64,000 nt of DNA from an uncultured Bacteroidota bacterium (GTDB lineage Bacteria > Bacteroidota > Bacteroidia > Bacteroidales > GCA-2748055), in assembly GCA_937129385.1 (NCBI GenBank), contig CAKZNC010000220.1, positions 96,483 through 160,482 on the forward strand. The letters are read 5' to 3'. A program made the position numbers and the translations under genes. The notes beneath the pieces were generated by a model. It saw only the letters and a program-made list of their open reading frames with translations. It ran no database searches and was not told the DNA's origin. Shown piece after piece: positions 26,800 through 48,115 of this stretch; position 1 is the stretch's first letter, and every line of letters begins with the position of its first letter.

Positions 26800-26815
26800 T
26801 GTTCCACGTGGAACA
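26800..26815. promoter_or_regulatory. parS-like centromere site (copy 1), TGTTCCACGTGGAACA
   Basis: Perfect 16-bp palindrome matching known chromosomal parS pattern TGTTNCACGTGNAACA; adjacent to mnmG. Confidence 0.85.
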
Positions 26816-26824
26816 TTCTTGAAA

Positions 26825-26840
26825 TGTTCCACGTGGAACA
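26825..26840. promoter_or_regulatory. parS-like centromere site (copy 2), TGTTCCACGTGGAACA
   Basis: Second perfect copy, 25 bp centre-to-centre from copy 1, 4 bp from the mnmG stop. Confidence 0.85.
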
Positions 26841-39577: not shown

Positions 39578-41167
39578 CTATTGAATTACTTTGATATCAC
39601 TTTCAGGAAGTCTTACCCTGATGCCATTGATTCGTATCTCCCTGTTTTTCCTGTATGTTATGGCAATTTCCATGTCTCCTGCCTCATCATATTTTCTCCA
39701 GGTTTTTTCCCTGATTCCTACTTCGTAATATTGTTCCTCTTTAATATCACCATCGGGGTAATAGTAAAATTGCCACTTGTCTGGAAGTCCCTGCAAATAG
39801 TTACCCTTGAAGTGGAGGGATCCATCATTGTAGTAATATAACCATTGCCCCTCTCTTAAACCAATAATATACTTACCCTCTTCACGGTGATCTCCCACAT
39901 GGTATACCCATTCACCATCCTTTTCTCCGGTAATATAATTTCCTGATGAAATGATACTTCCTGTCTCATTGTATTCAACCGCATAACCATCTTCCTTTCC
40001 GTTAAAATAGTTTTCTTCCCTCCATATTGCTCCTGATTCATAATACCATAGCCAAGTACCATTGAACCTGCCATTCAGGAAACCTCCCCGCTGTTCAATA
40101 TTTCCATTCTTAAAATAAAAAGTCCAGCTTCCTGATCTCCTGTTATTTGAATAGGTTCCTTTGGCCCTGAGTTCACCTGTTGCATAGAAATCAATCCAGC
40201 CGCCTCTCCTTTTTCCTTCAAGATCCACGACCCCTTCCGAAATCTTTTCCCCTCTCTGGTTATAAATATATGCGTTAGCAACGGTCCCGGTAGTATCAAA
40301 AAATCGGTGAATACCTATGGGTGTACCGTCCCTGTAACCTCCTGAAAATATGATTCTTCCATCTTCATCATAGGTCCTTTTGAAATCAATGATCTCACGA
40401 GCCTCTTCATCAATTTCTTCGATAACTGCCCCTCTTTCATACCTGAGGGTTTGTAACAATTTTCCATCCGGATCGTATTCCCTATAATATCCATGCAACT
40501 GACCCTCCAGGTAATTCTCCTCTTTTTTTAATGATCCATCCTGATAGAAAGTTTTAAATGTACCTTGTCTGAACCCCTGTTCACTGGTACGGTTGATCCT
40601 CTCCCTGCTGATCAGATAATTGTCTTTATACTGTTTAAGAGTGATAATCGTACTGTCCCTGTCAAATTCTTTTGCATAACCTTCCTTTTTTCCATCCTGG
40701 AAGTAGACAACCTCTTTCAGTTCACCACTTTTATAGTAGTAATAAGAAGTCCCTTCCTTTCTATCATTGATATATAGTTCTTTCGACTGCAGTGTTTTTT
40801 TACCAGGATATTCCGGGTTGTCATAGGCATAAGCATATGTATACCCACTTTTTTTTCCCACCTTGTAGTTAATTACTTCTATAAGTTCACCAGATTGGTT
40901 GTAAAAACTCCAGGTACTGTCAAGTAGAAAATTTTTTCGCTTTCCTTCAGATTTTATTACGCCTGTGACATAATAGGTCTTCCAGTATCCATCAGGCTTT
41001 CCGTTCCTGACATATCCTTCGCTTGAAACCTGACCGTTCGGATAATATATCTTCACCGGACCATCTTTCTCGTCGAGCTGAGCATTAAGATTGACAGAAC
41101 AGATCAAAATTGCTGGAAGTATTGCCTTTGCAATCTTTCGAAACCATATGTGATTTAACGTATTCAA
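39578..41167 (-). CDS. MORN-like / YwqK-type repeat protein
   Basis: Many YxxGxLxxxxxYxxGxxxGxWxxYxxxG repeats; hydrophobic N-terminal signal-like segment. Confidence 0.85.
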   Translation of the reverse strand: MNTLNHIWFRKIAKAILPAILICSVNLNAQLDEKDGPVKIYYPNGQVSSEGYVRNGKPDGYWKTYYVTGVIKSEGKRKNFLLDSTWSFYNQSGELIEVINYKVGKKSGYTYAYAYDNPEYPGKKTLQSKELYINDRKEGTSYYYYKSGELKEVVYFQDGKKEGYAKEFDRDSTIITLKQYKDNYLISRERINRTSEQGFRQGTFKTFYQDGSLKKEENYLEGQLHGYYREYDPDGKLLQTLRYERGAVIEEIDEEAREIIDFKRTYDEDGRIIFSGGYRDGTPIGIHRFFDTTGTVANAYIYNQRGEKISEGVVDLEGKRRGGWIDFYATGELRAKGTYSNNRRSGSWTFYFKNGNIEQRGGFLNGRFNGTWLWYYESGAIWREENYFNGKEDGYAVEYNETGSIISSGNYITGEKDGEWVYHVGDHREEGKYIIGLREGQWLYYYNDGSLHFKGNYLQGLPDKWQFYYYPDGDIKEEQYYEVGIREKTWRKYDEAGDMEIAITYRKNREIRINGIRVRLPESDIKVIQ

Positions 41168-41172
41168 AATAT

Positions 41173-42171
41173 TTAGAGGCCAAGTCGGCCTGATATTTCA
41201 AGCATCTTTTTAATTGAACCAACTGCTTTATTGATCAGTTCCTTTTCCATAACGACTTCAGGTTGTTCATATTTAAGAGAATTATAGATTTTTTCAAGTG
41301 AAATGAGCTTCATAAATTTACAATCATTGCATGCACAGGTAGAATCTTTCGGAGGAGCTGCAATGAATTGTTTATCAGGACTGGCAAGTTTCATCTGATG
41401 CAGGATCCCTGGTTCCGTAGCTACTATATACGCCCTGGATTCGTCTTCCTGAGTAAATTTAAGCAGGGAGGAGGTAGATCCCACGTGATCGGCAACGATC
41501 CTAACCGGCTTTTCACATTCAGGATGCGCAATGATCTTTGCATTGCTATACTCCTTTTTCAATTCCAGAATTCTTTCAAGGCTGAATTCTTCATGTACAT
41601 GGCAAGCACCGTCCCAAATGACCATTTCCCTACCGGTCAGATTATTTATATAATTCCCCAGGTTTCTATCCGGAGCAAATACAATTTTCTGATCCTTTGG
41701 CAAGCTATTTATAATTGCAAAGGCATTGGTAGAGGTAATTACTATATCAGTAAGTGCCTTGATGCGAGCAGATGTATTCACATATGAAACAACGATGTGA
41801 TCGGGATATTTATCCAGGAATTGCTCAAATTGGTCTGGAGGACATGATTCGGCGAGGGAACAACCTGCATTAAGGTCTGGTATGATCACCTTTTTCTCAG
41901 GGGAAAGAATTTTAGCCGTTTCTGCCATGAAATGCACTCCGGCGAATATTATAATATCAGCACTGGTACTTTCTGCTTTTCTTGAAAGATCAAGGCTGTC
42001 GCCAACAAAATCGGCAATGTCCTGAACTTCACTTTCCTGGTAATAATGTGCAAGAATCACAGCATTCTTTTCGTCTCTAAGATTATTTATCTCCTCCACA
42101 AGATTGGTTGAAGGAGGTATATCTGCCTCAACAAATCCTTTATCAATTGTCACTTTATTCACAAGATTCAT
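41173..42171 (-). CDS. nadA: Quinolinate synthase
   Basis: AVILAHYYQESEVQDIADFVGDSLDL, FAGVHFMAETAKILSPEK, PDLNAGCSLAESC, CNDCKFMKLISLEKI. Confidence 0.97.
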   Translation of the reverse strand: MNLVNKVTIDKGFVEADIPPSTNLVEEINNLRDEKNAVILAHYYQESEVQDIADFVGDSLDLSRKAESTSADIIIFAGVHFMAETAKILSPEKKVIIPDLNAGCSLAESCPPDQFEQFLDKYPDHIVVSYVNTSARIKALTDIVITSTNAFAIINSLPKDQKIVFAPDRNLGNYINNLTGREMVIWDGACHVHEEFSLERILELKKEYSNAKIIAHPECEKPVRIVADHVGSTSSLLKFTQEDESRAYIVATEPGILHQMKLASPDKQFIAAPPKDSTCACNDCKFMKLISLEKIYNSLKYEQPEVVMEKELINKAVGSIKKMLEISGRLGL

Positions 42172-42624
42172 AAGAACAATAATATTATAATAATTAATTC
42201 AAATATCTATAATGATGATGATATGCGGTTAACATTGTTAAAAAAGATTATAATTATATTCATATCACCGGTTCTTCAACAACAAATAACAAACAGTTAA
42301 CAATTGTTTTTTACAATCTGTTTTGATTTCCTGTAATTTAGAGAAACGCATCATGGTTTGTTAATAGTGCATTGTTTAAAAATGTTTAATGATCTGAGCG
42401 TTGATAACTGTGTATAGAACGTTTAATTTTTATCTAAAAAGCGACGGGTTTTTTTCTTGGCTTTGATATAAAATTGTATAAGGTGAAACTGAATGTAAAA
42501 AAGCAAGAATATTTTTTGATTCGCTATAAAAAGCAATTAACAACAAATTAACACTATTTTTGTTAAAAATTTTCTTCGTCGTTGTAACGGGAATATATTT
42601 ACTACTTTAACAAAAAGATCATTC
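42172..42624. other. AT-rich divergent intergenic region with TTAACA/TGTTAA repeats; candidate origin or regulatory region
   Basis: Eight TTAACA/TGTTAA hexamers between 42229 and 42612; palindromes TTAACATTGTTAA (42229-42241) and AACAATTGTT (42299-42308); DnaA-box-like CTATACACA on minus strand (42409-42417). Confidence 0.4.
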
Positions 42625-43065
42625 ATGAAAACACCTTCTCAGATTGCGATGACCAGTGATCATGCAGGGTACGAAATGAAGCAGCAGTTAAGAAAGCATC
42701 TTGAAAGCAAAGGTATCAAAGTTATCGATATTGGTACTTATAGACCGGACGCTGTGGATTACCCTGATTATGGTCATCAGTTAGGAGAGAAGATAGGAAA
42801 GGGAGAATATCCCATGGGAATATCAATCTGTGGAACCGGAAATGGGATCAACATGACAACCAATAAGCATACAGGCGTTCGGGGAGCCATTTGTTGGAGT
42901 GGGGAGATCGCTGAAATGGCGAGAAAACACAATGACGCCAATATATGTTCCCTGGCGGCCAGGTATACAGATTTAGATTTGGCAAAGCATATCGTTGATA
43001 TATTTGTCAGTACAGGTTTTGAAGGGGGACGACACGAAAGAAGAATCAGGAAAATAGATTTATAG
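42625..43065 (+). CDS. rpiB: Ribose 5-phosphate isomerase B
   Basis: SDHAGYEMKQQL, IDIGTY, VDYPDYGHQLGEKI, GICGTGNGI-like, GVRGAICW, EGGRHERRI. Confidence 0.95.
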   Translation: MKTPSQIAMTSDHAGYEMKQQLRKHLESKGIKVIDIGTYRPDAVDYPDYGHQLGEKIGKGEYPMGISICGTGNGINMTTNKHTGVRGAICWSGEIAEMARKHNDANICSLAARYTDLDLAKHIVDIFVSTGFEGGRHERRIRKIDL

Positions 43066-43068
43066 CTT

Positions 43069-43500
43069 ATGTTATCCAATACGTGTAAGTATGCGATCAG
43101 GGCCGTGGTCTACCTGTCGGTATATTCCTCGGCCAGTAAAAAGATTGGGATCAAGGAGATATCACAAAAACTTGAACTCCCCTCACCTTTTCTTGGCAAG
43201 ATACTTCAGTCACTTGCCAGGAACAAGTTATTGATTTCCACAAAAGGGCCACACGGAGGCTTTGGGTTGGGCAGGGCATCAGAAGACATCTCCCTGATGG
43301 ATATAGTTGAGATTGTTGACGGTCCGGACATCTTTGAAACCTGTCTTGTCAGGACCACCATTTGCTCTGATGAAGAACCCTGTGGTATTCATGACAATAT
43401 CACCGGAATGAGAAAGGAATTAAAACAATTCTTCATCGATCAGACCATCGACGACCTGGCCTCTGAATTCAAAAGAGACAGAAAAAGGATCAGGATCTGA
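43069..43500 (+). CDS. Rrf2 family transcriptional regulator
   Basis: CKYAIRAVVYLSVYSS, KEISQKLELPSPFLGKILQSL, KGPHGGFGL; Cys cluster CLVRTTICSDEEPC. Confidence 0.93.
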   Translation: MLSNTCKYAIRAVVYLSVYSSASKKIGIKEISQKLELPSPFLGKILQSLARNKLLISTKGPHGGFGLGRASEDISLMDIVEIVDGPDIFETCLVRTTICSDEEPCGIHDNITGMRKELKQFFIDQTIDDLASEFKRDRKRIRI

Positions 43501-43948: not shown

Positions 43949-46900
43949 ATGAAAAGCAGGAACGATCTTAATTCGCTGTTAGAGAAGCTCAGGGCTGAAA
44001 AGGCAGATACCTGGTTTGACCTGGGTTTATTTATAGACCGGTTCAGGGAGGAGCACGCGCTAAGGGAAGAGGGATTTGGCGGCACTTATGAAGACTTCAG
44101 CAGGGAGATCAAAAAGGGGGGTATAGGATTCATCACCTTTCATTTCATGGTAGATGGCGTAACGGTGGAGGTGGGAAAATATGCCCACCTTTTTGAGCGG
44201 CTGTATCCGGGCATATTCATTCATTACATTGGCGGGAAATTCAGGAACAGATCAGAGACCCTGATCAATCCACAGTACAGGAAATACCAGATTCCTGAAC
44301 TTGCAGGTTTTGATGAGTGGGATCTGTATGAGGCTTTTTTCAAGACCCAGCTGGAACGGGGAAGCAGACAATACAATCAACTGGTCGGCAAATTCTGGAA
44401 CCAAACTCTTCAACTGGTCGAAAAGATCGGGACATATATAGAGGAAGAGGGCATCAGCATCCTGTACGTCATCAATGTTTGTTCGAATCCGGGGAACGTG
44501 TCTGCCGCCCTGTCCCTGGTTTTGCTTTCAGAGTTTTTATCCATTCCCGTGATCAACAACAACCATGATTTCTATTTTGAAGGGGGGAACAGTCGTTTCG
44601 ACCGGGAATCAAAGAACCTTAAAAAGGGACCCCGCGATTTCTTTTTCACAAACGCACATCTCGGGGAGCTTTTCTCTATCATTGAAACCATCTATCCATG
44701 GGAATCAAATTTGTGGATGAATGTCAATATCAACCGATCACAAAGTAATCAACTGATCCGTTACAAAGGGCACAATCCGGCCAGGGTAGCAGAGATAGGA
44801 ACAGCCGTTGATACTTCAGTCTACACCAAAAATGACAAAAGGAGGAACATCAATGCTTTTCTCCAGTTTGAGCATATTTTAAGCAGGTACGGGGACCAGC
44901 TGACATGTTTTTCGGTTGAGGATGTGGAAAAAAGAGAATTGGTATCAGAGAAAGACCAGGTTCCCATATTGATTGGTAAACAGACGGGTCGTGTTGAAAG
45001 ATTTAGTTCGGAGAACATTATTTTCCTGCAACCAACGAGAATCATCTCAAGGAAAAGGATAGAGCTGGGCATTAGCTTAATTATGAAGTTGCTTGAAAAC
45101 AGGGAGATGAGAACAAGGATGAACAGCACTCCAAACCTGAAGATCACTTTACTGATCAGCGGCCCGATTGCTACCGGCCACCACCCCTATTTTCTCGAGT
45201 TGATAAGGGCTTACGACCTGCTGATGAATGAAGTTCCGGCAGAATTCCGGAACAGGGTCTACCTGGCCCTGCTGATGGGAGAAATCGACCAACAATCTTT
45301 TATAGAGCGTTATGATGCACCAATCAGCATCCCGGATCTTTATAATATTGCTTCATTGATTCTGCTTCCAAGCAAGACCGAGGGAAGGGGGTTGCCGATT
45401 ATTGAAGCGACTGCTTGTGGAACCCCAATCTTCTGCTGCAGGTATGAACCCGAAGCAGTTTATTCTGAAGTGGTCGGCGAGCACCTCGGGGAAGACGACC
45501 GTTTAAGGGTCCAGGAATTCAGGGGTAAAAAAATCAGCAAGCGTATCGTATCAGATATCATTGAAAGGGTATTTTTCCCACACAAATATGCAGAAGACAC
45601 CAGGCACAATATCAGGACGGTTCAAAAAAGGTACAGCCTTGAAGCCCTCAGCAGGAATATCAGTTCGATCGTTCAAAAACTTCATGCACAACTTCAGCCG
45701 GAATTTTACGAAGCAGGGGAGGCCAAAAAAGCATTTATGGATTATGCAGAGATGATGGTTGCAGAGGACAACAATATTCATTCACTGCTTCATGAAGAAA
45801 ACAGGCAGTATTTGCCAGGATACGGGAAGCTCTCTTTCATGCTGTATTTAAAATCACTGATCGATCCGAGTTTTTTCAGGATCGAACAACAGCGGGTGCG
45901 GGGGAGCGTTTTCTATTTTGCCCGGGAAATTCTTCACAATGATCCTGAGATTGAAAACATTCCGGAAGAGAAGATCGAACAATTTTATCGTGCGGTAGAC
46001 AGGGTCTTTTTTATCACGAACGGTAACCAGGAGGTCCTCCATGATCATTCCATGTCATACCGCCACAGGAACAGACGCAGTTATTTGTATCAACAGTATA
46101 CCTTCCAGGAACTTACCGGCGTTGTAAACCTGCTTTACATGCGGATTGTTCAGCCGGCACCTCATGTAAAAATCGACCTCAGCCCACAGTTTTTTACAGA
46201 CTGGAACCTGGCTCTTTTACAGCTCTCAACAAGCAATTACCTGGCCATTGATAACAGGAAATTACTCATAGAAAAGTTAAAGGCAAATTTGCCCATCGCA
46301 TATTTTCCCGGGGAGTTCATCATGTATGAGCTGGAGTTCTTTGCATTGCAGGCAATTCGTTCCCGCCTTGATCTGCCTATAGAGAAGGAGCTTACGCGAG
46401 ACATTCTTGAAAGGAGGCATCAAAATATTGCTCCTGTTTATATTTTTGCACAGAAAAATAAGTTGGGGAAGCAGCTGAACCGCAGGGAAATTGAGAACTA
46501 CATTGAAAACGGCAGGTCAGAAGAATTAAGAATATTGCATGCATACCGGCTGATTCGGATCATACAAACCAATCAATTGTGTGTTGGAATCCACTTTTAT
46601 CAACTTGGAGCAAATGCAATTTCAACTTTGGTTGACATAGCACTACAGGGAGGATTCCTGCTGACCAACAGGAGACATGCGGCCCTGATGACAGATATTG
46701 TAAATATCGACAGGTTTCACATTGGGCGGGTGAGGGGAGAACTCGCGGCAAACATCATGGGAATTCCGCCCGAAGCAGGATATATTCAGTATGTACCGGC
46801 CGGACTCAGGGCAACGATCGCCTACCCGACTCCAGTGCAGACTGCACTTGACCTGGACAGGGCACTTCATAGCGAGCAATATCAGAAATTGAAGACGTCT

Positions 46901-48115
46901 ATGGGTGAGAGGAAATTACGGGAGAAATTACGGGAGGATGCTGAAAACAAAGGAACTCCCGTATTCAGGCTTCTGGAAAAATTAAACAGTCAGGAACCGG
47001 GGTCATCCACCGTATCTCACGAACATATTTGCGGAAAGTATGCCGATGGAAATCCATATAATGGGGTGTATGCAATGATTCATCCCGGAGAAGAAAAATG
47101 GGAATTCAGTGTTGCACAATCCGGGAATGGTACGCAGACGGTTTCATCGCTGGCGGGGAAATTTGAAAAGGAGACGGGAAAAAGTGTAAGGATCGCCTGG
47201 AATGGTGGATATATCCTCAACGCCGAGCTTGTGGGTAAGCTTGGAATGCCGGAATCATATATTGGTTCACCACTCGGACTCCTGGTAAGGGACGGAACCT
47301 GTCTTTGCCCGCCTCTTTTTAACAAGGCTGCATTTTTGATTGATAGTGAAGGTCGTTTATCTATCCGGCGGGTCAATTGCCGATCGGGACTTGTCATCAC
47401 GGCTGGTCACTCGAAGATCTCATTCGCTGCGACGGATTACAATACAGCCCATCCGCGGGAAGGCAAGCCTGCCTATTATGATCTGATGTATACTGAAGAG
47501 ATCCCTTTAAAAGGAAGAGTTTTAGTGAGGCTGTCCGGTCGCAGGGTAATGGAAATTTTACACAACAGTGGTGTCATGCCTAAGGAGATCGTACCGGTTG
47601 GACTTACCTTTTCGATCCCGGAGGAAAAGGTTCCCGACGACCTCATTGAGGGCACGGAGGTGAAGATCGAGATCAAGGGATTGAAAGGAGTACAGCAAGC
47701 AGTTGAAGCGGGTCCGCTTTTATTGAAGGAGGGAAAGCCGGTGATCGACATGGAGAAAGAGGGCTGGACCTCTTGTCATTCAATCGAGACCCAGGCAGCC
47801 AGACTGGATTACATGGATATGAGGGGACCGAAAATTGCCGTGGGACTCAACGAACAGGGAACCCTGGTGGTGCTTGCCATTCATGGAAGGATCAGGGAAT
47901 CGGTGGGTGCTACCCATACGGATATGGCCAGAATTTTAGCAAAACACGGCATGGATGTTGCCATGGGGTTCGATCCCGGCGGAAGCAGCACCCTGTATGT
48001 CGATGGAATAACTTTGAATATATCGCCCTACAACAGCAATTATGAATACAATGTTTATGCATTGCCTCCCGAACCCAGGGCAGTCTCAAATGCAATCCTT
48101 GGAACATTAAAATAG
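43949..48115 (+). CDS. GT4-like glycosyltransferase fused to a C-terminal phosphodiester glycosidase (NAGPA/DUF2233-like) domain
   Basis: N-terminal GT4-type motifs (PTRIISRKRIELGISLI, LLPSKTEGRGLPIIEATACGTPIFCC); C-terminal NGGYI, GSPLGLLVRDG, ATHTDMARILAKHGMDVAMGFDPGGSSTLYVDG; no signal peptide. Confidence 0.8.
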   Translation: MKSRNDLNSLLEKLRAEKADTWFDLGLFIDRFREEHALREEGFGGTYEDFSREIKKGGIGFITFHFMVDGVTVEVGKYAHLFERLYPGIFIHYIGGKFRNRSETLINPQYRKYQIPELAGFDEWDLYEAFFKTQLERGSRQYNQLVGKFWNQTLQLVEKIGTYIEEEGISILYVINVCSNPGNVSAALSLVLLSEFLSIPVINNNHDFYFEGGNSRFDRESKNLKKGPRDFFFTNAHLGELFSIIETIYPWESNLWMNVNINRSQSNQLIRYKGHNPARVAEIGTAVDTSVYTKNDKRRNINAFLQFEHILSRYGDQLTCFSVEDVEKRELVSEKDQVPILIGKQTGRVERFSSENIIFLQPTRIISRKRIELGISLIMKLLENREMRTRMNSTPNLKITLLISGPIATGHHPYFLELIRAYDLLMNEVPAEFRNRVYLALLMGEIDQQSFIERYDAPISIPDLYNIASLILLPSKTEGRGLPIIEATACGTPIFCCRYEPEAVYSEVVGEHLGEDDRLRVQEFRGKKISKRIVSDIIERVFFPHKYAEDTRHNIRTVQKRYSLEALSRNISSIVQKLHAQLQPEFYEAGEAKKAFMDYAEMMVAEDNNIHSLLHEENRQYLPGYGKLSFMLYLKSLIDPSFFRIEQQRVRGSVFYFAREILHNDPEIENIPEEKIEQFYRAVDRVFFITNGNQEVLHDHSMSYRHRNRRSYLYQQYTFQELTGVVNLLYMRIVQPAPHVKIDLSPQFFTDWNLALLQLSTSNYLAIDNRKLLIEKLKANLPIAYFPGEFIMYELEFFALQAIRSRLDLPIEKELTRDILERRHQNIAPVYIFAQKNKLGKQLNRREIENYIENGRSEELRILHAYRLIRIIQTNQLCVGIHFYQLGANAISTLVDIALQGGFLLTNRRHAALMTDIVNIDRFHIGRVRGELAANIMGIPPEAGYIQYVPAGLRATIAYPTPVQTALDLDRALHSEQYQKLKTSMGERKLREKLREDAENKGTPVFRLLEKLNSQEPGSSTVSHEHICGKYADGNPYNGVYAMIHPGEEKWEFSVAQSGNGTQTVSSLAGKFEKETGKSVRIAWNGGYILNAELVGKLGMPESYIGSPLGLLVRDGTCLCPPLFNKAAFLIDSEGRLSIRRVNCRSGLVITAGHSKISFAATDYNTAHPREGKPAYYDLMYTEEIPLKGRVLVRLSGRRVMEILHNSGVMPKEIVPVGLTFSIPEEKVPDDLIEGTEVKIEIKGLKGVQQAVEAGPLLLKEGKPVIDMEKEGWTSCHSIETQAARLDYMDMRGPKIAVGLNEQGTLVVLAIHGRIRESVGATHTDMARILAKHGMDVAMGFDPGGSSTLYVDGITLNISPYNSNYEYNVYALPPEPRAVSNAILGTLK

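Follow-up and report, generated by a model that had tools for sequence, protein, structure and literature searches.

Origins of Bacteroidota chromosomes are often placed at dnaA by convention. That oriC in Bacteroidetes commonly lies at a distance from dnaA has already been published (PMC4755523), and a paper on Flavobacteriaceae places oriC at mnmG. Lineage-specific DnaA boxes are also a known kind of variation. In E. coli, DnaA residues 432-435 and 438-439 contact the bases of the box (PMC5043019), and binding is made sequence-specific by Thr435 (Sutton and Kaguni 1997, as cited in PMC11511705). Where strand opening is concerned, the basal unwinding system has a GC cluster followed by DnaA-trio repeats, 3'-[G/A]A[T/A]-5', beside a DnaA box.

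In this study we analysed a 64-kb stretch of DNA (the window) from an uncultured Bacteroidales bacterium, and we propose that the gap between its nadA and rpiB genes is very probably the chromosome replication origin. As in known bacterial origins, the gap is intergenic and AT-rich, it carries clustered 9-mer-like sites on both strands, and it has the least stable duplex adjacent to it, a skew switch and parS nearby; unlike a typical oriC, it is far from dnaA, its sites share the core TTAACA, and neither an exact canonical DnaA box (TTATCCACA) nor a canonical DnaA-trio was found at the gap. The oriC predicted with Ori-Finder for Prevotella intermedia (PMC4755523) likewise combines a skew transition and a box cluster with a distant dnaA, but that prediction was based on the E. 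coli box, allowing one mismatch, and no flanking genes are named for it in the part of the article available, whereas here the box itself differs and nadA and rpiB are the flanking genes. The boxes of Helicobacter pylori and other Epsilonproteobacteria (PMC5043019) offer a further parallel, with a changed box base accompanying changes in DnaA helix 5 at 432, 435 and 438-439; there T stands at position 5 with Ser/Lys variants, whereas in the present case position 6 carries A, together with Ala435 and Lys432. In the gap, a box is followed by a GC-rich spot, a trinucleotide run and an AT-rich stretch, an order that resembles the basal unwinding system. We considered the ATGATGATGATA run as a DnaA-trio and rejected it, because its polarity is wrong, with (ATG)n instead of (TAG)n on the trio strand. 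Our search found no report of a nadA-linked oriC or of an altered box in Bacteroidales; DoriC and supplementary tables, which lay outside that search, may list the location.

A conserved array of hexamers between nadA and rpiB

The two genes are transcribed divergently away from the gap, which is 453 bp long with a G+C content of 25% and, with the ORF caller used here, exceeds every other ORF-free gap of the contig, in agreement with an earlier note on this DNA that had called it the longest non-coding gap in the window. All eight TTAACA/TGTTAA hexamers counted in that note are present (TTAACA starting at 42229, 42297, 42537, 42548 and 42607; TGTTAA at 42236, 42359 and 42561). The note had expected about one by chance; first-order and second-order Markov shuffles of the gap give 1.2 and 2.1 expected copies, and eight or more copies occur in none of the first-order and 0.2% of the second-order shuffles. 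The hexamer was picked post hoc, and the commonest hexamer of so AT-rich a stretch, whichever it is, reaches eight copies in 45% of the first-order shuffles and 30% of the second-order ones; the gap by itself is therefore weak evidence. The significance of the hexamers rests on the contig-wide comparison and on their conservation in orthologous gaps, which together provide strong evidence. On the 163-kb contig (C220), the densest other 450-bp stretch holds three copies against the eight in the gap. The divergent layout and the hexamers recur in all 17 loci of the family, with two to eight hexamers per gap against 0.6-2.0 expected, so that this check, named in the note, does not refute an origin.

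Alignment of the 17 gaps reveals several fixed blocks: the ATGATGATGATA trinucleotide run by a GC-rich spot with a GTT..TGTT element, TATTAACA, TTAACA..TGTTAATAG and, near rpiB, AAT.AACAACAAAT[TC]AAC..TTGTTAAA-like. Beyond the family, T[TC]AACA words are enriched in 23 of 32 additional Bacteroidales regions upstream of nadA, in a sample of loci skewed toward closer relatives. The word cluster upstream of nadA is kept where rpiB does not adjoin, and the words there are canonical DnaA boxes.

These observations bear on the alternative put forward in the earlier note, namely that the gap is a dense regulator-binding region for nadA and/or rpiB with the hexamers as operator sites. Divergent promoters must indeed sit in the gap, and both genes flank it throughout the family, but the sites are scattered across its entire length in both orientations, and a cluster that persists without rpiB, as canonical DnaA boxes, is not what operators of this gene pair would lead one to expect. 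Operator sites would also leave the skew switch and parS unexplained. We consider this alternative very unlikely and favour an origin over it.

The elements mapped in and beside the predicted origin are collected in Table 1. Of all 60-bp duplexes in the window, the one at the nadA edge of the gap is the least stable in a nearest-neighbour calculation (-58.4 kcal/mol; the next has -63.0), and it adjoins box-like sites, as is expected of an AT-rich unwinding element. Although the canonical box is absent, a cluster of variant sites of the [T/C]TAT[T/C]AACA type is present, which we regard from their sequence as candidate DnaA boxes. Rfam gave no matches within the window.

Table 1. Features in and near the predicted origin (positions in the window)
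Feature	Position	Strand	Basis or remark
Two exact parS sites TGTTCCACGTGGAACA, 25 bp apart	26800-26840	none	No other exact copy in the genome (4.28 Mb)
nadA (quinolinate synthase), bounding the gap on the left	41173-42171	minus	ORF and relatives
Candidate DNA-unwinding element	42165-42224	none	Nearest-neighbour duplex stability
Predicted oriC, intergenic between divergent nadA and rpiB	42172-42624	none	Skew switch, complete chromosomes, conserved gap
ATGATGATGATA trinucleotide run adjoining TGCGG	42212-42223	plus	Sequence and family alignment; position conserved in the family
TTAACA + TGTTAA inverted pair	42229-42244	none	Outermost of the box-like sites, adjacent to the candidate unwinding element
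TTAACA box-like core	42297-42302	plus	Hexamer scan
CTATTAACA 9-mer	42359-42367	minus	Strongly enriched in nadA gaps of the family and of many other Bacteroidales
GTTGATAAC + TGTGTATAG, degenerate DnaA-box-like pair (TTATCAACG; CTATACACA)	42399-42417	minus	Sequence
AATTAACAACAAATTAACA...TTTTTGTTAAAAA, right-hand block with three hexamers	42535-42569	none	Conserved in the alignment of 17 gaps
TTAACA core close to the rpiB start	42607-42612	plus	Lacks conservation in the other gaps
rpiB-like sugar-phosphate isomerase gene, right flank of the gap	42625-43065	plus	ORF and relatives

Three neighbouring ORFs were read by eye: a 529-aa protein adjoining nadA (39578-41167) with tandem YWxYYxxG-type repeats, MORN/YwqK-like; an Rrf2-type regulator immediately downstream of rpiB (43069-43500); and a 1388-aa ORF (43949-48115), glycosyltransferase-like with a C-terminal phosphodiester-glycosidase-like domain.

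Skew, parS and the position of dnaA

The genome that contains the window (G000) is a 4.28-Mb draft in 236 contigs, and the skew at the scale of the chromosome was therefore taken from relatives. The GC skew, which the earlier note had named as a check, switches from minus to plus at the gap beside nadA in ten genomes, G000 and nine relatives; in G000 it is -0.122 over the 20 kb to the left and +0.023 over the 20 kb to the right, and in G195 it climbs slowly to the right of the gap across a very AT-rich stretch. The sampled complete chromosomes of G195, G213, G247 and Chitinophaga sp. E66 (G271) all switch at nadA and have their second switch on the opposite side of the sampled circle. In these four genomes dnaA is far from nadA (in G195, at 1.94 Mb against 0.108 Mb), and in G000 it sits on a separate contig, where it has no hexamer cluster. 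Three other genomes depart from this pattern: in G100 the switch is away from nadA, in G145 nadA is at 1.84 Mb, outside the interval of 1.40-1.70 Mb that contains the switch, and in G222 the skew is noisy and the position of nadA relative to the switch is unclear. Thus the link between nadA and the origin is common, not universal.

The parS pair, which the note had put about 15 kb away, lies 15.4 kb from nadA, within the tens of kilobases expected for a bacterial oriC, where mnmG meets an adenine-deaminase-like ORF. Exact parS sites were present in four of nine genomes searched, always 3.6-15.4 kb from nadA. Among the indicator genes of oriC, mnmG (gidA) is 13.4 kb from the gap. This raises the question of whether the origin might be close by yet outside the gap, for instance at mnmG and parS (26.8-28.7 kb), given that mnmG is a known neighbour of oriC elsewhere, that oriC has been reported at mnmG in Flavobacteriaceae and that parS adjoins mnmG in the window. 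In the family genomes with flanks, however, the skew is negative throughout the 20 kb that lead up to the nadA gap and changes sign at that gap, and no hexamer cluster is found near mnmG, which makes an origin at mnmG extremely improbable. The genes to the left of the gap are mostly on the minus strand, as the note had described, and this fits a leftward fork.

The reading of the gap as oriC, one of the two offered in the earlier note, is thus favoured by the skew switch, the proximity of parS, the least stable duplex and the conservation of the gap, as well as by the words enriched in the homologous region of the sister orders, which are canonical DnaA boxes. An origin that is linked to nadA and has a box of its own would give a practical means of placing origins in draft genomes and of correcting growth-rate estimates based on read depth. 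Two complete genomes are numbered from within 0.5 kb of dnaA, which is 1.15-2.3 Mb off the skew switch.

Box words and residue 435 of DnaA

Words upstream of nadA were counted by order and without a preset motif. In Chitinophagales and Sphingobacteriales the top word is the canonical box TTATCCACA (24 copies against 1.0 expected), and in Bacteroidales the top words are TATTAACA (62 against 7.3 expected), CTATTAACA and TATCAACA. About a quarter of the 45 copies of TTATCCACA in the genome of Chitinophaga sp. E66 fall within 40 kb around nadA. We discarded CTATTAACA as an order-wide marker, as in the complete genomes G195, G213 and G247 the exact 9-mer shows no clustering at nadA.

The recognition helix of DnaA has the sequence GRDHTTV in Chitinophagales and GRDHSTV in Sphingobacteriales, and most of the Bacteroidales examined have GKDHATV, so that the position aligned to E. 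coli DnaA Thr435 (residue 435) is Thr, Ser or Ala. Base 6 of the box, C or A, tracks this residue. Among TATnnACA words, it is A in 87 of 110 at Ala435 origins and C in 57 of 83 at Thr435 origins, while Ser435 origins are mixed (A in 19 and C in 11 of 34). The fraction of A-type boxes per genome is 0.92 for Ala435, 0.35 for Thr435 and 0.73 for Ser435, and the difference between Ala435 and Thr435 has P = 8e-7 when phylogeny is ignored. One member of the Bacteroidales with Ser435 (G110) has mostly A-type boxes; the DnaA proteins of L086 and L105 are also Ser435 from a reading of domain IV. Because base 6 tracks the specificity residue, the TTAACA hexamers are probably the cores of altered, lineage-specific DnaA boxes, although the relationship is correlative and confounded by phylogeny.

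It may be argued instead that the gap is oriC but that the TTAACA words serve another factor, with DnaA using only degenerate TTATNCACA-like sites. Such sites exist: CTATACACA is present at 42409, where TGTGTATAG, next to GTTGATAAC, has two mismatches to TTATCCACA, and TTATTCACA, which the earlier note had not listed, lies at 42155, barely within nadA. TTAACA is also moderately enriched in Chitinophagales and Sphingobacteriales alongside TTATCCACA. At Ala435 origins, however, AT[CT]CACA is nearly absent (11 copies against 132 of AT[CT]AACA), and DnaA would thus be left almost without sites. We regard a separate factor as rather unlikely.

Our preferred reading, in which the gap is the origin and DnaA acts there on a variant box array, is one that we hold with high confidence as a whole. 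DnaA would load on a scattered array of lineage-specific 9-mers with a consensus of about [T/C]TAT[T/C]AACA and TTAACA as the core, the very AT-rich edge proximal to nadA would then melt, and forks would leave through nadA on the left and through rpiB on the right. An Ala435-type DnaA would prefer TTATTAACA-type sites, and residue 435 may be the cause of the changed box. We lean slightly toward the view that initiator and origin in Bacteroidota switched their code together, with residue 435 going from Thr, by way of Ser, to Ala as base 6 went from C to A across the origin boxes, and with the origin staying beside nadA. The correlation between residue and box follows the major clades, and hence reflects few independent changes. 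Under such a change of code, the preference of DnaA among TTATTAACA, TTATCAACA and TTATCCACA would switch with residue 435. The paired variation would then represent a natural experiment, in which an essential protein-DNA code changes while replication is kept.

Two dnaA loci in the comparison are unusual in themselves. The gene of Chitinophaga sp. E66 (L215/L218, 108782-109266) seems split by an in-frame TAG, leaving an open part of 316 aa, through either a sequencing error or a genuine break. The metagenome-assembled genome G291 (L244, L265) has two dnaA genes, of the RDHSTV and KDHATV types, which may reflect a mixed bin or a second gene.
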